Of a DNA stretch of 53,614 nt, positions 8,634-19,564 are shown one piece after another. The stretch is from positions 1-53,614 of the forward strand of contig JACZTG010000015.1 in assembly GCA_022573815.1 (NCBI GenBank), given 5' to 3'. Made by a program: the position numbers and the translations under genes. A model generated the notes under the pieces. That model had not been told where the DNA came from. It worked only from the letters and a program-made list of their open reading frames with translations, and did not search any database. The stretch comes from Candidatus Neomarinimicrobiota bacterium. Its GTDB lineage: Bacteria; Fidelibacterota; SORT01. Positions within the stretch are counted from its first letter, which is position 1. Every line of letters starts with the position of its first letter.

Positions 8634-8707
8634 GGGCGATTAGCTCAGTTGGTTAGAGTGCCACGCTCACATCGTGGAGGTCACTGGTTCGAGTCCAGTA
8701 TCGCCCA
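8634..8707 (+). tRNA. tRNA-Val (anticodon CAC)
   Basis: The cloverleaf is complete. The acceptor arm GGGCGAT (8634-8640) pairs with ATCGCCC (8700-8706), and A8707 is the discriminator base. The D arm is GCTC..GAGT. The anticodon arm is CCACG-CTCACAT-CGTGG, giving anticodon CAC. The T arm is ACTGG-TTCGAGT-CCAGT. The CCA end is not encoded (CGG follows), so it must be added by the CCA-adding enzyme. Confidence 0.97.
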
Positions 8708-8814
8708 CGGAAAATGGAATATATGCTTAGAATAATAAAAGGAATTGGAAAGTGAAGTCACCGGGAAATCGGAGACTGATATTTTTACCACTTCGAAAAA
8801 TAAAATTTTAATAT

Positions 8815-10420: not shown

Positions 10421-10802
10421 CAAGCAGATCGGGCGATCGCCTTTCGCTAATATTAGCGGGGGGAGGAAAGTCCGAACTCCATACAGCAGGGTGCTCCCTA
10501 ACGGAGAGGTTTCGCGAGGGACGGAAAGTGCAACAGAAAGTATACCGCCGATTTCCGATTTTATCGGAAAGGTAAGGGTGAAAAGGTGGTGTAAGAGACC
10601 ACCAGTTCCGGGGGTGACCCCGGAAGCTTTGTAAACCCCACCTGGAGCAAGATCATGCAGGAGAGAGCGTGGCTGGCGCGTTTCGGTGCAAACCGATTAA
10701 TTTCCGGGTAGATCGCTTGAGTGTTGTGGTAACATAACGCCTAGATAAATGATCGCCATCCCGATTTTTCGGGATACAGAATTCGGCTTATAGATCTGCT
10801 TG
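10421..10802 (+). ncRNA. rnpB: RNase P RNA (M1 RNA), bacterial type A
   Basis: This is the catalytic RNA that removes 5' leaders from pre-tRNAs. The ends pair as helix P1: CAAGCAGATC (10421-10430) with GATCTGCTTG (10793-10802). The conserved GAGGAAAGTCC block starts at 10463. Further conserved blocks are ACAGAAAGTATACC, GGTAAGGGTGAAAAGGTG, the ACCCCACCTGGAGCAAG region and the 3' block ending GAATTCGGCTTATAGATC. A strong hairpin at 10758-10775 (ATCCCGA-TTTT-TCGGGAT) is a peripheral helix of the RNA rather than a terminator. The length of about 382 nt suits type A. Confidence 0.95.
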
Positions 10803-10831
10803 AAGCTTATATTTTTAAATAATGGTGAACA

Positions 10832-12556: not shown

Positions 12557-14221
12557 ATGAAAATTTTTGAATCAAAATTAGATACCAAATCAAAAGAATT
12601 TAAAGAACGTAAAAAGTTTCTCAAGATTCTCCTCGAAGAATTGAATTCAAAATCAGTTGAAACAAAAGAGCATGATAAATCGCGCCTTGCTAAACTCGCC
12701 GAGAAAGGGAAACAGAGTGCGAGAGAAAAAATAAAGCGTGTACTTGATAAAAACTCACCCGCTACGGAAATTGGATTGTTTGCCGCTGATGGTATGTATG
12801 AAGAGATTAAAGGCGGTTATAAATCCGCAGGCGTGGTCACGGTTATCGGCGAGGTTGCCGGTAAAAAGTGCGTCATAGTAGCGAACGATCCGCTTGTTAA
12901 ATCAGGAGCCTGGGTAGAAATTACATGCAAGAAAAATCTTAGAGCTCAGGAAATCGCAATGGAGAATCATCTGCCCATCATATATATGGTGGATTCAGCG
13001 GGCGTCAACCTTGAACGTCAGGCTGAGATTTTTCCTGATAAAGAGCATTTTGGAAGGATATTCAGAAATAATGCCAAGCTTTCGGCGATGGGTATCCCGC
13101 AAATATCGTGTGTGTTCGGATTTTGTGTTGCGGGAGGGGCTTATCTTCCCGCTATGTCCAGCGAATTAGCGATGATAACCGGAAACGCTAATATGTTTTT
13201 AGCCGGCCCGTTTCTCGTAAAATCGGCATTGGGACAGGATGTCGATATGGCAACATTAGGCGGGGCAGAAATGCATAACGCCGTCAGCGGAGTAGCGGAT
13301 TACCAATTCGATACGGAAGATGAGGCTTTCGATTGGATACGCAATCAGATGGCTCTTATCGGCGCTCAGAAAAAATTAGGTCTGGCGAGAGAGAAAGCAA
13401 TAGAACCGAAATTAGATCCCGATGAGTTACTTGGGATTCTCCCCGCTGACTTAGGCGGCAAGTACGATGTGAGGGAGATAATCGGACGAATCGTGGACGG
13501 AAGTGAATTGGAGGAATATAAGAAAAAATACGGGAAGACGATAGTCACCTGTTTTGCCAGGATCGGAGGATTTTCTGTCGGCATTGTAGCCAATCAGGGG
13601 ATGTCGGTAAAAAAAGAAATGCCGCTCGATCATACCGGAAAATCCCAACCCCCGCAAATACAGATGGGAAATGTGATTTATTCGGATTCCGCGAAGAAGG
13701 CTGCCAACTTTATAATGCTGTGCAACGAACGGAGGATACCACTCGTTTTTATGCAGGACGTAACAGGATTTATGGTAGGAACAAAAGCTGAGAATGAAGG
13801 AATTATTAAGGATGGCGCTCAATTTGTTAATGTTCAGGCAAATTCGGTTGTTCCGAAGTTTACTGTTATCCTGCGGAACTCTTTCGGTGCGGGAAACTAT
13901 GCGATGTGCGGAAAAGCTTACGACCCCCGCTTGATAGTTGGCTGGCCCACGACTCGACTTGCGGTAATGGACGGCGGAATAGCGGCAAACACGGTCCTAT
14001 ATACAAAGAGGGATTTAAGCGATTCAGAGAAAGAAGAATTTTATGAACGGATTAAAGCAAAGTACGAAAAAGAAATGTCTCCATATTATTTAGCTGCCCG
14101 AATGATGTTAGATGCCGTAATTGACCCTCGTGATACCCGAAACTTGTTGATTCAGGGATTAGAAATGGCAGACCATAATCCGGATATGCCCGCCTATCTG
14201 ACGGGAGTATTAAGGACTTGA
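12557..14221 (+). CDS. Acyl-CoA carboxylase, carboxyltransferase (beta) subunit of the methylcrotonyl/geranyl-CoA type
   Basis: The protein has 554 residues with two crotonase-like carboxyltransferase halves (about 90-340 and 350-545). Motifs include VDSAGVNLERQAEIFPDKEH, FCVAGGAYLPAMSSE, LAGPFLVKSALGQDVD and, in the second half, SFGAGNYAMCGKAYDPR with WPTTRLAVMDGG. The FGAGNYxMCGxAYDPR form is the one I know from methylcrotonyl-CoA and geranyl-CoA carboxylases rather than from propionyl-CoA or acetyl-CoA carboxylases. The enzyme moves CO2 from carboxybiotin to an acyl-CoA. The biotin carboxylase/BCCP subunit is not in the window, so it must be encoded elsewhere. The 3' end overlaps the next gene by TTGA, which links it to the AtuA homologue. 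Confidence 0.88.
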   Translation: MKIFESKLDTKSKEFKERKKFLKILLEELNSKSVETKEHDKSRLAKLAEKGKQSAREKIKRVLDKNSPATEIGLFAADGMYEEIKGGYKSAGVVTVIGEVAGKKCVIVANDPLVKSGAWVEITCKKNLRAQEIAMENHLPIIYMVDSAGVNLERQAEIFPDKEHFGRIFRNNAKLSAMGIPQISCVFGFCVAGGAYLPAMSSELAMITGNANMFLAGPFLVKSALGQDVDMATLGGAEMHNAVSGVADYQFDTEDEAFDWIRNQMALIGAQKKLGLAREKAIEPKLDPDELLGILPADLGGKYDVREIIGRIVDGSELEEYKKKYGKTIVTCFARIGGFSVGIVANQGMSVKKEMPLDHTGKSQPPQIQMGNVIYSDSAKKAANFIMLCNERRIPLVFMQDVTGFMVGTKAENEGIIKDGAQFVNVQANSVVPKFTVILRNSFGAGNYAMCGKAYDPRLIVGWPTTRLAVMDGGIAANTVLYTKRDLSDSEKEEFYERIKAKYEKEMSPYYLAARMMLDAVIDPRDTRNLLIQGLEMADHNPDMPAYLTGVLRT

Positions 14222-15579
14222 GCGCGGATATAATCCGAATTGCCAACGCTCAGGGCTTTTGGGGAGATTCCGTAGATGCTCCTCTGAATATGGTCAGGGG
14301 TGGACAAATAGATTACCTGACGTTGGATTATCTGGCTGAAGTGACTATGTCAATTATGCAGAGGCAAAAAAGTAAAAATCCACAGGCTGGTTACGCCAAA
14401 GATTTTGTGGATGTAATGAGAGAAATTTTCCCCGACGTATTGGAAAAAGGAATAAAAGTTGTTACGAATGCGGGAGGAGTGAACCTTGATTCCTGTTTAG
14501 AGGCGCTGAGAAGTACCGCCAATGAATTAGGAATCTCGGGTTTAAAAATTGGCATCGTAAAAGGTGATGACATATTGGATAGGCTTGATGAACTGTTGGA
14601 TGATGGGGCACCGCTGTCCAATATGGATACCGGGCTTTCACTGAAAGAGATTAGGGACAGCATTGTCTCCGCTAATGTTTACCTGGGAGCAGCTCCAATT
14701 GCGGAAGCGCTTTCGAAAGGCGCTGATATTGTGATTACCGGAAGGGTTACCGATACGGGGTTAACGCTCGCTCCGATGATATATGAATTTGGCTGGAATT
14801 CTGATGATTTTAATCTTCTGGCTGCGGGAACGGTGGCGGGTCACATTCTTGAATGCGGGGCTCAAAGCACAGGCGGTAATTACTCGCGCTGGTGGGATGT
14901 TCCCGATTATTCAAATATAGGATACCCGATTGTTGAAGCTTCTTCTGACGGTTCATTTGTCATAACAAAACACGATGGGACAGGGGGGCTTATCAACAGA
15001 GAATCGGTTAGCGAACAGCTGTTGTACGAAATGGGAGAGCCGACGAATTACATCACACCCGATTGTGTTGTAGATTTCACAAGTATTGCTTTGGAAGAAG
15101 AGGGGAATAATCGCGTTCGCGTCACCGGTGTGAAAGGGGGTGCGGCTACTGATACATTCAAAGTATCTATCAATCATTTCGTCGGATATAAAGCGTCGGG
15201 AAGTTTAACTATTTCCGGTCCGTTCGCGGTTGATAAAGCAAAAAAATGCGCTGAAATTATTTGGAAAAGGCTCGAGCAAGCCGGATATGAATACGAAGAA
15301 ACGAATACGGAATTTTTGGGATTGGACTCAAGTCATGGAAAGATAAATCCAATTCCGGAACAGGTCAATGAGGTTGTGCTCCGACTCGGTGTGCGGGATT
15401 CAGATAAATCAGCGGTTGAACGATTCGGGAAAGAGTTGGCTCCTGTCATTACTAACGGCCCCCCGGGTATTACCGGATTTGCAGGCGGAAGACCGAAACC
15501 ACAAAATATTTATGCGTATTGGCCTGCTTTGTTAAGTAAAAAACTGATAAAACCTGAAGTAACGGTGGAATCAATTTAG
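14218..15579 (+). CDS. AtuA family protein (DUF1446), main domain
   Basis: The protein has 453 residues and a TTG start inside the stop of the carboxyltransferase gene. Family marks are IANAQGFWGDSVDAPLNMV at the N-terminus, TNAGGVNLDSC, ADIVITGRVTDTGLTLAPM, LECGAQSTGGNYS and a GGAATDTFKV strand. AtuA is encoded with geranyl-CoA carboxylase in Pseudomonas acyclic-terpene utilisation, but its reaction has never been firmly assigned. Here the C-terminal small domain is a separate downstream gene, so the two together (453+119) equal one full-length AtuA. A role in the same acyl-CoA pathway as the carboxyltransferase is inferred from the overlap. Confidence 0.88.
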   Translation: MSADIIRIANAQGFWGDSVDAPLNMVRGGQIDYLTLDYLAEVTMSIMQRQKSKNPQAGYAKDFVDVMREIFPDVLEKGIKVVTNAGGVNLDSCLEALRSTANELGISGLKIGIVKGDDILDRLDELLDDGAPLSNMDTGLSLKEIRDSIVSANVYLGAAPIAEALSKGADIVITGRVTDTGLTLAPMIYEFGWNSDDFNLLAAGTVAGHILECGAQSTGGNYSRWWDVPDYSNIGYPIVEASSDGSFVITKHDGTGGLINRESVSEQLLYEMGEPTNYITPDCVVDFTSIALEEEGNNRVRVTGVKGGAATDTFKVSINHFVGYKASGSLTISGPFAVDKAKKCAEIIWKRLEQAGYEYEETNTEFLGLDSSHGKINPIPEQVNEVVLRLGVRDSDKSAVERFGKELAPVITNGPPGITGFAGGRPKPQNIYAYWPALLSKKLIKPEVTVESI

Positions 15580-15581
15580 CT

Positions 15582-15941
15582 GTGAGAAAAATCAGACTTT
15601 TGGATATTGCCCACGCAAGATCAGGTGATAAAGGTAATTCAAGTAATGTCGGGCTAATTGCAAAGAACCGGGAAGCTTATGATATCATCGCAGCTGCGGT
15701 GACCGCTGAAAAAGTCAAATCACATTTTGGGGATATTGTGAAGGGAGATGTTGAACGATACGATCTGCCGAATCTTCTTTCGTTGAATTTCATATTGCAT
15801 GATTCATTGGGAGGCGGAGGTTCACAATCGTTGAAAAACGATGCGCAGGGAAAGACACACGGGCAAGGGCTGCTGCTTATGGAGATCGAAATTCCTGACG
15901 AGTTCACTATTGGGATGGATGAAAATCGGCCAAGCAGTTGA
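15582..15941 (+). CDS. AtuA-like ferredoxin-fold domain protein (split-off AtuA C-terminus)
   Basis: The protein has 119 residues and a GTG start two bases after the preceding stop. DIAHARSGDKGNSSNVGLIA at residues 8-27 is the signature that begins the C-terminal small domain of AtuA proteins. It is followed by YDLPNLLSLNFILHDSLGGGG and a closing EIEIPDEF strand. The stand-alone form occurs in other bacteria, so this is gene fission rather than a frameshift: it has its own start and is in another frame. It probably assembles with the upstream product. Nothing here shows the reaction. Confidence 0.85.
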   Translation: MRKIRLLDIAHARSGDKGNSSNVGLIAKNREAYDIIAAAVTAEKVKSHFGDIVKGDVERYDLPNLLSLNFILHDSLGGGGSQSLKNDAQGKTHGQGLLLMEIEIPDEFTIGMDENRPSS

Positions 15942-16058
15942 AAATGACGACTTTTGTTTCAAAAGACTTTGGATTTAATTGAAATAGCAGAGCTGCGAGA
16001 TCTATCCGAGAATACTTTCCCCTTGCTGATATAGGCTAATCTGATTAAGTTTATCGTT

Positions 16059-16078
16059 GTTAATACTTGTTTATTAAC
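16059..16078. repeat. Inverted repeat ahead of the GlmU-like gene (candidate operator)
   Basis: GTTAATA (16059-16065) and TATTAAC (16072-16078) form a perfect 7-bp inverted repeat with a 6-bp spacer. It lies 17 bases before the TTG start in the only sizeable gap (153 bases, 15942-16094) of the acyl-CoA cluster. I see no convincing promoter hexamers, and nothing else in that gap. It could be a regulator site or a chance feature of AT-rich DNA. Confidence 0.35.
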
Positions 16079-16094
16079 GAATATAGGATAATTA

Positions 16095-17567
16095 TTGGAA
16101 AAAGAAGATACTCTTTCACTTCTCAAAAAACTAAGCTCGCCATTAGACCTCTCAAAAGGCTCTGTGGGCATCATACTTGCAGCAGGACACGGAAAGCGAA
16201 TAAAATCCGAAAAGTCTAAAATGCTTCACGAAATCTGGGGTAAACCGACTGTTTTGCGTGTTCAAACAGCTTTGGAGCAGGGACTGGTCAGTTCGGCTCA
16301 GATTATCGTGGTCGGCATTAAGGCGAATGAAGTAGCGGATACAGTCAGTAAGAAGGAGAATCTTGCTTTTGTTTTTCAGGAGGAACAAAAAGGAACGGGA
16401 GACGCTGTCAAAAGAGCGTTGAATCTTTTAAGCGATGAGGATTTCGATGGGGCTGTTTACATAGTTCCGGGCGATATGGGACTAATAGACAAGGATACTA
16501 TATCTGATTTTAAAGAATCATTTCAATCATCAAAAGCGGATATGATGGTATTGACGGGACTCTACGAAGGAGATACGAAACGCAATCAATATGGCAGAAT
16601 TGTTCGAGTACCGGATGGTAAGCATAAAGGTGAGGTGGTTGAGATCATAGAGCATAAAGATATTCTCGCAATGAGCAATGCTCAAGCCTATCAAATAACT
16701 CACAAAGGAATGAAATTTGAGGTCGGCAAAAACGATCTTTTGAACATTCGCGAATTTAACACGGGAATATTTGGCTTCAAGGCAAAGTCGTTGAGAGAAA
16801 ATCTTGGGGAATTAACTACAGATAACGTTCAGGGTGAATTATATCTCACGGATCTGATAAAGATGTACAATGAAGATGATAAGAAAGTCAGCGCGGTAAA
16901 TGCTGAGAACAGCAGATTAGTAGAAGGATTCAATGAAAAAAGTACTCTATTGGAAATGGAAGCTATTGCAAGGGATAGAGTCTATGAACTGCTGAAAGAT
17001 GTGATTACCATTGAAGACAGGTATGATTTTTTCATTGCGGAAGAAGTAGTAGAACGGATTTTGAAGCTGGATAATTCAGGGAAATCCGGAGACATAATAA
17101 TACAAAAGGGTGTATCTCTTGGACCAAATGTGCGGCTCTCGAACGGCGTTGAAATATGCACAAACAGCCAGCTAACAGGCGAAGTGCAAATAGGAGCTAA
17201 TACTTTTATCGGGAAAAGAGTAACGATGAGTAACTTCCCCGGACAGTCCATAAAAATCGGTGAAGGAACGGAAATTCTTCACGGAAACGAAATTAAAGGG
17301 GAGGTAAAGATCGGTGATAATTGTATAATTGAATCGCGCGTATCTATAACCGGCAATGATGAATTTCCTGTAATTATAGAAGACAATGTCCATTTGAGAG
17401 GTGTTACATATATATTCGGAAGCAAAATTGAGAAAGGCGTTCATATAACCCATTCGGTGCTGAAACGTAAACATGTGAGAAATTTGGAATCAGAAAGCGG
17501 AAATACTTTTAAAATAAGATATGTTTTACCTTCCCCTGAGGGAGAAGAAGCGGTGACAGACATTTGA
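16095..17567 (+). CDS. GlmU-like sugar nucleotidyltransferase with left-handed beta-helix
   Basis: The protein has 490 residues. Residues 22-250 are a nucleotidyltransferase domain: GIILAAGHGKRIKSEKSKML (the GxG(x)R pyrophosphorylase loop), QKGTGDAVKRAL, VPGDMGLI and NTGIFGFKAK. Residues 335-460 are hexapeptide repeats (GVSLGPNVRL, QIGANTFIGK, EVKIGDNCII). This fits UTP:GlcNAc-1-phosphate uridylyltransferase. The acetyltransferase signature of bifunctional GlmU (VEVK...GHL and NIGAGT...NYDG) is missing, so the acetyl-transfer step is probably not carried out here, or the substrate differs. The TTG start has AGGA ahead. It sits oddly between AtuA and enoyl-CoA hydratase genes and overlaps the latter by TTGA. 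Confidence 0.82.
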   Translation: MEKEDTLSLLKKLSSPLDLSKGSVGIILAAGHGKRIKSEKSKMLHEIWGKPTVLRVQTALEQGLVSSAQIIVVGIKANEVADTVSKKENLAFVFQEEQKGTGDAVKRALNLLSDEDFDGAVYIVPGDMGLIDKDTISDFKESFQSSKADMMVLTGLYEGDTKRNQYGRIVRVPDGKHKGEVVEIIEHKDILAMSNAQAYQITHKGMKFEVGKNDLLNIREFNTGIFGFKAKSLRENLGELTTDNVQGELYLTDLIKMYNEDDKKVSAVNAENSRLVEGFNEKSTLLEMEAIARDRVYELLKDVITIEDRYDFFIAEEVVERILKLDNSGKSGDIIIQKGVSLGPNVRLSNGVEICTNSQLTGEVQIGANTFIGKRVTMSNFPGQSIKIGEGTEILHGNEIKGEVKIGDNCIIESRVSITGNDEFPVIIEDNVHLRGVTYIFGSKIEKGVHITHSVLKRKHVRNLESESGNTFKIRYVLPSPEGEEAVTDI

Positions 17568-18346
17568 GCGGCAAGGTCAGATTAAAAAATGATTCTTTCA
17601 TAGCGGAAATAGTACTCGATAATCCACCTGTAAATGCGCTGGGGTCGGAGACCGTAATCGAACTGTTTGAAGCTACCGAACAAATCAGTGATTGGATCAA
17701 GAGTCGTCAAACACGAGTCGTGATTCTTCGGTCAAAGGGTAAACATTTTTGCGCCGGAGCAGACCTTAAAGAGAGACTAAAACTTGATGATTCGGAAGTA
17801 TCGGTGGCAGTGAAAAAGATACGGAAGGCAGTTGATGGGATTTGGAATATCAGGGTTCCTGTGCTGGCACTTATTCACGGTGTCGCATTGGGCGGAGGGA
17901 TGGAACTTGCGCTTGCAGCGGATATTCGCCTTGCAGCGGATGATTCGAAAATGGGACTAAAAGAAGTTTCGCTGGCAATAATGCCGGGCGCCGGAGGTAC
18001 TCAAAGACTGCCGCGGATTGTGGGCATGGGGAAAGCGTTAGAATGGATAACCACAGCAAAAGATATAAGTCCGGAGGAAGGGCTAAAATCAGGGCTGTTA
18101 AATGAAATAATGCCGGCAAATATTTTATTGGAGCGAGGACTCGAATTAGCGAAGTCAATAGCAAGTAACGGTCCTATCGGAGTTCAGTCTGCAAAAAAGG
18201 CGGTTCGGGATGGATTTGACAGAAAATATGAAGATGCGATGGAAATCGAATGGTCTGAATACTTAAAGACGGTTCCCACTCAAGATAGATTAGAAGGTCT
18301 GAATGCATTTAAGGACGGCCGGATTCCGAAGTATGAAGGTCGGTAA
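17564..18346 (+). CDS. Enoyl-CoA hydratase/isomerase, methylglutaconyl-CoA hydratase type
   Basis: The 260-residue length is standard for the crotonase family. The CoA/oxyanion motifs are HFCAGADLKERL and HGVALGGGMELALAADIR. Both catalytic glutamates are present, one in GGGMELAL and one in KEVSLAIMPGAGGTQRLPR. The tail EGLNAFKDGRIPKYEGR resembles AUH/LiuC (3-methylglutaconyl-CoA hydratase) more than FadB-type hydratases. It would hydrate the product made by a methylcrotonyl-type carboxylase, and the carboxyltransferase three genes upstream is of that type. The TTG start overlaps the previous stop by 4 bases. Substrate specificity is inferred from similarity and context. Confidence 0.85.
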   Translation: MSGKVRLKNDSFIAEIVLDNPPVNALGSETVIELFEATEQISDWIKSRQTRVVILRSKGKHFCAGADLKERLKLDDSEVSVAVKKIRKAVDGIWNIRVPVLALIHGVALGGGMELALAADIRLAADDSKMGLKEVSLAIMPGAGGTQRLPRIVGMGKALEWITTAKDISPEEGLKSGLLNEIMPANILLERGLELAKSIASNGPIGVQSAKKAVRDGFDRKYEDAMEIEWSEYLKTVPTQDRLEGLNAFKDGRIPKYEGR

Positions 18347-18358
18347 CACTTTACTCAC

Positions 18359-18387
18359 TTGAACGGAGTGAAGAATATGGATATATT
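18359..18387 (+). promoter_or_regulatory. Sigma-70-type promoter ahead of the acyl-CoA dehydrogenase gene
   Basis: TTGAAC (18359-18364) and TATATT (18382-18387) are 17 bp apart. They would give a leader of about 25 bases to the TTG start at 18419. Confidence 0.6.
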
Positions 18388-18418
18388 GGTTTAAGCGAAA
18401 ACTTAAAGGAAAACGAAA

Positions 18419-19564
18419 TTGGATTTTTTTACAGATGATCATAGGCTGCTGCAAGAGACTATAAGGGATTTTGCGCTTAACGAAGTAGCGCCTATAGCAG
18501 ATGAGATCGACGAAGAAGAACGCTTCCCGCTTGAGACAGTTGCTAAAATGTTTGATCTCGGTCTCATGGGCATACCTTTTTCGCCTGAATATGGCGGAGC
18601 CGGAATGGATTATGTATCCTATGCCATCGCAGTTGAGGAGTTGTCAAAAGTATGTGTTTCAACAGGCATAACTTTGGCGGCACATATCTCTCTTGGAGTC
18701 GGTCCCATCTATTATTTCGGAAATGAGGAACAGAAGAAAAAATATCTTCCTAAACTTACGCAAGGAGGGAAATTAGCTTCTTTCGGACTGACCGAAGCGA
18801 GCGCCGGAAGTGATTCAGGAGCAACGCAAACAACAGCTGTTCAGGAGGGCGACCAGTGGGTGATAAATGGGTCGAAAATGTTCATTACCAACGCGGGATT
18901 CGCGGAAACATTTGTGCTGTTGACGGTGACAGATCGAAATAGCGGGAAGCCCGAACTCACAAATTTCATTGTAGATAAGGGGACACCCGGCTTAATTATC
19001 GGACCTCCGGAGAAAAAAATGGGGTGGCGAGGATCAGATACGCGCGCTTTAACATTTGAAAACTTAAAGGTTCCGGCTGAAAATATGCTTGGTAAAAGAG
19101 GCGAGGGTTTCAAGCAATTTATGCAAACTTTAGACGGAGGAAGAATTTCTGTCGGGGCGCTGAGTCTTGGATTGGCAGAAGGAGTCTATGAGTTATCGCT
19201 GAAGTATGCGAATGAACGCACCGCCTTCGGAAAGCCGATATTCGAATTTCAGGGGATAAGTTTTAAATTAGCGGATATGGCGATGAGAATTGAAGCGGCG
19301 CGTCATTTGGTTTATAACGCTGCCAGATTACGCGACGCAGGGAAGGACATCAAAAAAGCCTCCGCCATGGCGAAACTTTACGCTTCGGAATTAGCAATGT
19401 GGGCAGCAGGTGAAGCAATTCAGATTCACGGAGGCTATGGCTATCTTAAAGATTTTCCTGTGGAACGGTTTTATCGAGATGCGAAGGTATGCGAAATAGG
19501 AGAGGGTACGTCAGAAATCCAAAGAATCCTGATTGCGAGGGAGATAAGAAAAGAACTTCACTAA
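18419..19564 (+). CDS. Acyl-CoA dehydrogenase (short-chain type)
   Basis: The 381-residue length is standard for the family. It is an FAD enzyme that introduces the alpha-beta double bond into acyl-CoA and passes electrons to ETF. Motifs are FGLTEASAGSDSGA (FAD binding), GSKMFITNAG, RTAFGKPIFEFQG and IQIHGGYGYLKDFPVERFYRD. The catalytic base is Glu362 in IGEGTSEIQR. Isovaleryl-CoA dehydrogenase has Ala/Gly at that position, so this is a butyryl/short-chain-like enzyme and not the leucine-pathway IVD. The TTG start has AAAGGA ahead. pgpH follows after 10 bases and may be read from the same promoter. Confidence 0.92.
   Translation: MDFFTDDHRLLQETIRDFALNEVAPIADEIDEEERFPLETVAKMFDLGLMGIPFSPEYGGAGMDYVSYAIAVEELSKVCVSTGITLAAHISLGVGPIYYFGNEEQKKKYLPKLTQGGKLASFGLTEASAGSDSGATQTTAVQEGDQWVINGSKMFITNAGFAETFVLLTVTDRNSGKPELTNFIVDKGTPGLIIGPPEKKMGWRGSDTRALTFENLKVPAENMLGKRGEGFKQFMQTLDGGRISVGALSLGLAEGVYELSLKYANERTAFGKPIFEFQGISFKLADMAMRIEAARHLVYNAARLRDAGKDIKKASAMAKLYASELAMWAAGEAIQIHGGYGYLKDFPVERFYRDAKVCEIGEGTSEIQRILIAREIRKELH

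Follow-up and report, generated by a model that had tools for sequence, protein, structure and literature searches.

A six-gene cluster in the genome of a Candidatus Neomarinimicrobiota bacterium probably encodes the middle of leucine (isovaleryl-CoA) degradation, with an AtuA-family protein and its small subunit cleaving 3-hydroxy-3-methylglutaryl-CoA (HMG-CoA) in place of an absent HMG-CoA lyase. The cluster lies 3' of recJ in the window, by which we mean the whole 53,614-nucleotide stretch of contig JACZTG010000015.1 (C15) that was analysed. It encodes a carboxyltransferase (CT), AtuA, the small AtuA subunit, a GlmU-like protein, an enoyl-CoA hydratase and an acyl-CoA dehydrogenase, and the coordinates of all six genes were verified. 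We infer the substrate and the reactions as follows. The dehydrogenase, or a paralogue elsewhere, would yield 3-methylcrotonyl-CoA, which the CT, together with a biotin carboxylase and biotin carboxyl carrier protein (BCCP) encoded elsewhere, would convert to 3-methylglutaconyl-CoA. The hydratase would turn this into HMG-CoA, and AtuA with its small subunit would then perform the cleavage otherwise carried out by HMG-CoA lyase.

The CT gene (12557..14221, + strand) encodes a 554-residue beta subunit of an acyl-CoA carboxylase of the 3-methylcrotonyl-CoA carboxylase (MCC) type, which carries FGAGNYAMCGKAYDPR and matches Carboxyl_trans (PF01039, E 2e-135). Its best PDB relatives by phmmer are 9tps, 4q0g, 9yx0 and the MCC beta chains 8j4z and 3u9r, at 432–457 bits. 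Across solved structures, MCC-named chains score 411–434 bits, AccD1 443 and the carboxyl transferase domain protein 9yx0 436, whereas geranyl-CoA carboxylase (GCC) reaches 334. The top single chain, 9tps (456 bits), is named propionyl-CoA carboxylase (PCC), and other PCC-named chains score at most 243. In a tree of 36 sequences, the four PCC rows split off from the other 32 at 100/100. One further branch (100/100) groups the window CT and a close relative with four KSB1/Calditrichota CTs, two more consist largely of CTs whose genomes also carry AtuA, and the last, with 13 members (100/100), holds GCC-like CTs, CTs linked to HMG-CoA lyase and the CT of the canonical Mycetohabitans leucine operon (isovaleryl-CoA dehydrogenase, CT, hydratase, biotin carboxylase, HMG-CoA lyase); the 36 sequences do not settle the order of the four non-PCC branches. 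By sequence, then, the CT is one of the gamma-carboxylases (MCC/GCC) and not a PCC, an identity that the tree and the structure scores rule out despite the score of 9tps. The first-pass annotation had called this protein methylcrotonyl/geranyl in form, which the tree bears out, no grouping with PCC being seen.

Within that lineage, the substrate can be narrowed further. According to PMC4673880, in excerpt, selectivity follows one residue, Phe in MCC and Gly in GCC, with the Phe blocking geranyl-CoA. Aligned to the MCC structure 8j4z, where this residue is numbered 191, the window CT reads EHFGRIF and places Phe165 at the selectivity position, with no GCC-type Gly. Phe165 makes 3-methylcrotonyl-CoA a more likely substrate than geranyl-CoA, which favours leucine over terpenes as the source of carbon, as far as a sequence motif can indicate. 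Phe likewise occupies the position in 55 of 60 CT rows scanned (where some genes are represented by two loci), and all rows in the branch of the window CT have it. The exceptions are two Tyr rows from one genome (G006) and three alphaproteobacterial CTs beside a fused AtuA, which have Gly (L199, L202) or Ala (L200). These three plasmid clusters speak for isoprenoid-acid degradation of the citronellyl/geranyl-CoA type, in which AtuA would cleave 3-hydroxy-3-isohexenylglutaryl-CoA, a reaction put forward for Pseudomonas and Thauera. We consider that route unlikely here: beyond the Phe165 block and the prevalence of Phe, the AtuA proteins of the three clusters sit in a branch (100/100) that excludes the window AtuA, and neither a short-chain dehydrogenase nor an acyl-CoA synthetase occurs among the neighbouring genes scanned. 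The earlier suggestion of a leucine-like or isoprenoid-acid route with an unassigned AtuA step has thus been sharpened in its first half by the lineage and Phe165, while its second half has lost ground.

One indication of what AtuA does comes from its distribution. Across 61 genomes of the phylum, scored for AtuA, MCC-like CT and HMG-CoA lyase, AtuA is present in 17, all of which have an MCC-like CT, and in none of the 42 genomes without one. At an identity of at least 45%, such a CT occurs in 17 genomes, namely 15 of those with AtuA plus G019 and G047; the other two AtuA genomes, G009 and G035, have a CT at 33–34% identity over its longer piece. The association gives a Fisher p of about 3e-13 with these two weaker CTs and 2e-10 without them, for genomes that are not independent. 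The CT lies within 3 kb of AtuA in 15 of the 17, the exceptions being G004, where the two are on separate contigs, and G023. HMG-CoA lyase exceeds its cut-off in three phylum genomes (G019, G047 and G031). In G019 and G047, which have an MCC-like CT and no AtuA, the lyase gene (388 and 393 bits) directly adjoins the CT gene. Among the 19 genomes with a CT, the lyase is therefore found in 0 of 17 with AtuA and 2 of 2 without it (p 0.006, or 0.018 if the weak lyase relative in G023 is counted). In G031, the lyase gene is flanked by genes for an aconitase-family protein and a family III CoA-transferase (L072).

A similar pattern extends beyond the phylum. AtuA relatives are found in Neomarinimicrobiota, KSB1, Acidobacteriota, Ignavibacteriota, Bacteroidota, Clostridia, Actinomycetota, Alphaproteobacteria and haloarchaea. 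A single scan across named genomes returned 42 AtuA loci, from which 35 genomes were followed, the remaining seven already being among the relatives. An MCC-type CT (at least 44% identity) is encoded in 33 of the 35, across several phyla, the exceptions being G084 and G094, with that of G068 a fragment, and HMG-CoA lyase exceeds its cut-off in only two of the 35. In Sulfidibacter corallicola, an AtuA-positive species that can be cultured, the best match to HMG-CoA lyase scores 61 bits. The first-pass annotation had held that AtuA in relatives without carboxylase genes nearby would refute its reading. Taken literally, that is what 24 of the 42 loci present, with no CT in the searched stretch, some stretches being short; yet a demand for proximity is too strict, because 33 of the 35 genomes encode an MCC-type CT somewhere. 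A separate prediction, that genomes with HMG-CoA lyase need a 3-oxoacid CoA-transferase and those with AtuA do not, failed to discriminate, with CoA_trans in 0 of 3 and 3 of 17, respectively.

The organism's own genome (2.39 Mb in 65 contigs, including C15; 96% complete) yielded no HMG-CoA lyase; this absence, and the probable substitution by AtuA, had escaped the first-pass annotation. PF00682, the HMGL-like family, finds a single protein in it, a 2-isopropylmalate-synthase-like protein of 429 residues on contig C12 (L066 8480–9769), whose gene overlaps one for an enoyl-CoA hydratase. This protein could be the organism's HMG-CoA lyase, leaving AtuA some other role in the pathway, and a similar pair of matches, with a hydratase close to a match of this kind, recurs in L129 of genome G061. 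We hold this to be very unlikely. The protein scores 28 bits against the HMG-CoA lyase model (cut-off 246) and reads GTAMGIGERVGN where the HMG-CoA lyase of G019 reads GGIGGCPFAPGASGN, and 10 of the 17 AtuA genomes of the phylum, one of them 66% complete, give no hit with this model at E 0.001. Near the gene are a DgcN-like gene and a dipeptide-epimerase-like gene, the latter named by eye (L066 6412–10517).

Structural comparison indicates a fitting type of chemistry. AtuA (14218..15579, +; 453 residues, TTG start), our proposed HMG-CoA-cleaving lyase, matches PF07287 at 515 bits (cut-off 22.8; E 1.5e-154) over positions 1–436 of the 437 in the model, and has no match at E 0.001 in NCBIfam, HMG-CoA lyase families included. 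The gene next to it (15582..15941, +; GTG start) encodes the small subunit of 119 residues, whose sole Pfam match at E 0.001 is the AtuA_ferredoxin domain (PF23544, 101 bits). In a fold search with an AlphaFold2 model of AtuA (pLDDT 91, from 37 sequences), the sole PDB match below E 0.001 was 9evf_A (E 1.1e-25), the structure being titled 'Citramalate lyase - ADP - pyruvate complex'. VIA-align superposes 411 residues on 9evf_A at Z 30.4 (r.m.s. deviation 3.8, 16% identity); the next row has Z 9.7, and rows other than 9evf span just AtuA residues ~321–437. For the small subunit (pLDDT 85.7), the sole PDB match below E 0.001 was the partner chain 9evf_B (E 1.3e-4), which the fold search alone gave: a sequence profile of 22 small subunits had no PDB relative (best E 0.15). 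At the sequence level, a profile of 37 AtuA sequences gives 25 bits with 9erq_A, which is named 'Acyclic terpene utilization AtuA family protein | Citramalate lyase, subunit A (cmlA)'. When 16 AtuA-type rows are compared with 4 Cml-type rows, the two sets have 17 invariant residues in common, among them Gly175, Arg176, Asp179, Glu212, Cys213, Tyr270, Glu271, Asp286 and Lys315 in window AtuA numbering. With both subunits matched in fold and these residues shared, the window pair is built like an enzyme that splits acetate off a tertiary hydroxy acid. Chemically, such a cleavage is of the kind proposed for HMG-CoA, and we count the match in favour of that reaction.

The same fold, two-subunit architecture and invariant residues would also suit a plain citramalate lyase (CmlA) that stands beside the CT by chance, which we judge highly improbable. 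A CmlA relative, the Clostridial protein of L190 beside methylaspartate ammonia-lyase, scores 554 bits to 9erq_A, against the 25 bits of the AtuA profile, and is accompanied by a DUF4387 small subunit resembling CmlB (99.5 bits), whereas the window small subunit is AtuA_ferredoxin. In the phylum, AtuA is moreover tightly linked to an MCC-type CT, and outside it to HMG-CoA reductase, and the eight genes scanned, to which the search for methylaspartate genes was confined, include no methylaspartate ammonia-lyase. CmlA-type proteins occur in the Clostridial loci L187–L190, with methylaspartate ammonia-lyase beside L187, L189 and L190 and DUF4387, still listed as unknown in Pfam, in L187 and L190. 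A second Clostridial AtuA type follows a transporter together with its small subunit in L161–L164 (CitMHS in L161 and L163, similar by eye in L162 and L164), and L161 also has two CoA-transferase subunits; this type may cleave some other hydroxy tri- or dicarboxylate.

Mevalonate-degradation operons offer a second setting in which AtuA may take the place of HMG-CoA lyase. In the Clostridial locus L064 (G094), AtuA and the small subunit are followed by HMG-CoA reductase, a small TctB-like gene and TctA, and L227 (G300) has the same order, with a reductase scoring above the threshold for TIGR00532, a degradative family. The term TctB-like reflects position and likeness to a Roseomonas gene (38%), two such proteins having no Pfam match. 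In the haloarchaea Salinigranum marinum and Halalkalicoccus sp., a degradative HMG-CoA reductase comes first, followed by AtuA and then the small subunit. In Roseomonas mucosa, the operon consists of HMG-CoA reductase, TctB-like, TctA and HMG-CoA lyase, with Tct proteins related to the Clostridial ones, and the annotation of Lichenicola gives the same operon. From 37 plasmid records with this HMG-CoA reductase, 15 loci were opened; as annotated in the flanks, where the gene table is incomplete, five have HMG-CoA lyase, two have AtuA and none has both. PF07287 matches in 35 of 391 genomes of the Clostridial class sample, eight of them strongly, and HMG-CoA reductase adjoins AtuA in two. Because the Clostridial and haloarchaeal reductase-linked AtuA proteins lie in separate parts of the AtuA tree (99/98), this association probably arose more than once.

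Other parts of the pathway are encoded elsewhere in the genome. As the first-pass annotation had stated, biotin carboxylase is missing from the window genes scanned; a search for its C-terminal domain gave two matches, both on other contigs. One (L069) is preceded by a small 153-residue gene, and the pair is probably AccB–AccC, judged from gene size. The other, of 500 residues on contig C8, adjoins a 177-residue BCCP-like gene, methylmalonyl-CoA mutase and BirA, and the window CT probably shares it. Contig C7 carries a PCC-type CT and a small cobalamin-binding subunit, the latter named from sequence by eye. Two further observations were counted towards leucine: a row on C8 comprising a Glu/Leu/Phe/Val-type dehydrogenase (its sole listed NCBIfam match being tryptophan dehydrogenase, below cut-off), an acyl-CoA dehydrogenase, 3-hydroxybutyryl-CoA dehydrogenase and a thiolase, and the Caldithrix sp. 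cluster L027, which adds a thiolase and a branched-chain aminotransferase. Isovaleryl-CoA dehydrogenases bear their catalytic Glu on another helix and have Ala at the GxGTSE motif. The short-chain-type acyl-CoA dehydrogenase of the cluster (18419..19564, +; PF00441/PF02771; 5ol2_C, 446 bits) has instead Glu362 in GEGTSE, and LDGGR at the position of the isovaleryl-CoA dehydrogenase Glu. The first reading of this enzyme as short-chain in type and not an isovaleryl-CoA dehydrogenase was correct, and the mixed pathway signal that it gave persists.

Several observations weigh against a leucine pathway in which AtuA replaces HMG-CoA lyase. The genome search turned up four acyl-CoA dehydrogenases, all of them without the isovaleryl-CoA dehydrogenase signature, and the C12 protein offers a rival lyase. 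In the phylum, G023 has AtuA together with a weaker relative of HMG-CoA lyase (181 bits), and G031 has the lyase without an MCC-like CT. G019 and G047 are of one family and have a CT of the classical MCC branch, unlike that of the window, so the contrast between AtuA and lyase genomes amounts to one or two independent events. In the wider sample, 2 of the 35 AtuA genomes (G069, G075) have HMG-CoA lyase above cut-off and a third (G068) a fragment, and 8 of the 15 HMG-CoA reductase loci have neither lyase nor AtuA annotated nearby. The sequence likeness of AtuA to citramalate lyase is remote, at 25 bits and 16% identity in superposition. Finally, the small subunit is not recognisable in the searched stretch at 8 of 25 AtuA loci (L006, L007, L035, L036, L043, L047, L048 and L061), where it may be encoded elsewhere; a ninth locus, L046, stops at a contig end. 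It is also logically conceivable that AtuA is a partner of the carboxylase and not a lyase, although HMG-CoA would then have no known outlet in genomes that lack the lyase, unless it drained into mevalonate synthesis.

In a bolder version of the proposal, which we put forward tentatively and rate somewhat below an even chance, AtuA and its small subunit would act as an ATP-assisted acetate lyase that forms acetoacetyl-CoA and acetate. The free carboxylate of HMG-CoA would first be phosphorylated, retro-aldol cleavage would give acetoacetyl-CoA and acetyl phosphate, and the latter would return its phosphate to ADP or feed a phosphotransacetylase. Three hints point this way. The title of 9evf names ADP as well as pyruvate, and this ADP suggests that ATP may activate the carboxylate; in Rhodococcus gordoniae, a phosphotransacetylase-like gene overlaps AtuA by 4 nucleotides, its product matching PF01515 while NCBIfam models stay below cut-off. 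On that plasmid (L195 3291–7655), an AMP-binding enzyme, the phosphotransacetylase-like protein, AtuA and the small subunit are encoded in a row with 4-nucleotide overlaps, after which come genes for TetR, CT, biotin carboxylase and acyl-CoA dehydrogenase. An ATP-assisted cleavage would allow leucine and mevalonate to be degraded with neither HMG-CoA lyase nor an acetoacetate activation step. The third hint is that acetate is the product named for the terpene pathway, where print sources assign the cleavage inconsistently: in the excerpted texts, PMC4847356 names AtuA for the step, among enzymes 'characterized or tentatively identified', and PMC4097962 ascribes it to LiuE.

The remaining features of the locus concern its organization. 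The TTG start of AtuA sits within the CT stop, a 4-nucleotide overlap with AAGGA upstream; of the earlier claim that AtuA is translationally coupled to the CT, the overlap is confirmed and the coupling is plausible from the sequence. In locus L025, a 331-codon open frame separates CT and AtuA. The GlmU-like nucleotidyltransferase with hexapeptide repeats (16095..17567, +; 490 residues; GlmU model 199 bits, below its cut-off of 450), which the first-pass annotation did not list, keeps its place beside AtuA in several relatives and is thus a conserved neighbour in the cluster. The enoyl-CoA hydratase (17564..18346, +; PF00378), a proposed 3-methylglutaconyl-CoA hydratase, has as best solved relatives 3kqf, an enoyl-CoA hydratase/isomerase family protein (204 bits), and then 1hzd, a methylglutaconyl-CoA hydratase (187 bits), in keeping with its initial description. 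Upstream of the cluster are a class A RNase P RNA (10421–10806, +), just 5' of recJ, and a tRNA-Val (8634–8708, +).

Already known are the AtuA family itself, a tentative role for it as a lyase in the breakdown of terpenes, and one member that is a citramalate lyase. No claim of AtuA acting as an HMG-CoA lyase in leucine or mevalonate degradation was found in the literature searched, whose reach excluded most subscription journals, nor was a paper on the 9erq and 9evf structures found in the same literature, which covered few such journals. If our proposal is true, leucine and mevalonate degradation may be scored incomplete in uncultivated genomes that have the full route, a widespread and long-unassigned protein family would gain a testable function, and one enzyme fold would explain cleavage in glutamate, leucine, mevalonate and terpene breakdown.

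Four known systems bear comparison with the cluster. The window CT shares its lineage and the selectivity Phe with MCC beta (LiuB, MCCB), and it lies on a branch separate from that of the classical MCC and GCC-like CTs. HMG-CoA lyase (LiuE/MvaB, PRK05692, DRE-TIM) belongs to a family unrelated to AtuA; it occupies the same place in leucine and mevalonate clusters and acts on the substrate that we propose for AtuA, whose products may be acetoacetyl-CoA and acetate in contrast to the acetoacetate and acetyl-CoA of the lyase. The terpene AtuA of Pseudomonas and Thauera belongs by name to the same Pfam family and likewise stands beside a gamma-carboxylase and a hydratase; it is described as a single protein of ~600 residues (615 in Thauera), whereas the window AtuA is divided between two genes and goes together with an MCC-type CT. 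The fourth is the citramalate lyase CmlAB (9erq, 9evf), an AtuA-family protein with DUF4387, which is like the window pair in both folds, in its two genes and in the 17 invariant residues, and which removes acetate from a tertiary hydroxy acid, the reaction type that we propose here too. It differs in its very low sequence similarity, in having DUF4387 instead of AtuA_ferredoxin and in its link to methylaspartate ammonia-lyase, where AtuA is linked to an MCC-type CT or HMG-CoA reductase. In excerpt, PMC4682846 describes methylaspartate ammonia-lyase with a DUF1446 gene as its neighbour and calls the fate of citramalate in E. coli unclear, and PMC10434189, also in excerpt, reports that in Prevotella intermedia methylaspartate ammonia-lyase has AtuA-family genes at its side; this is a gap into which the CmlA entries fit.

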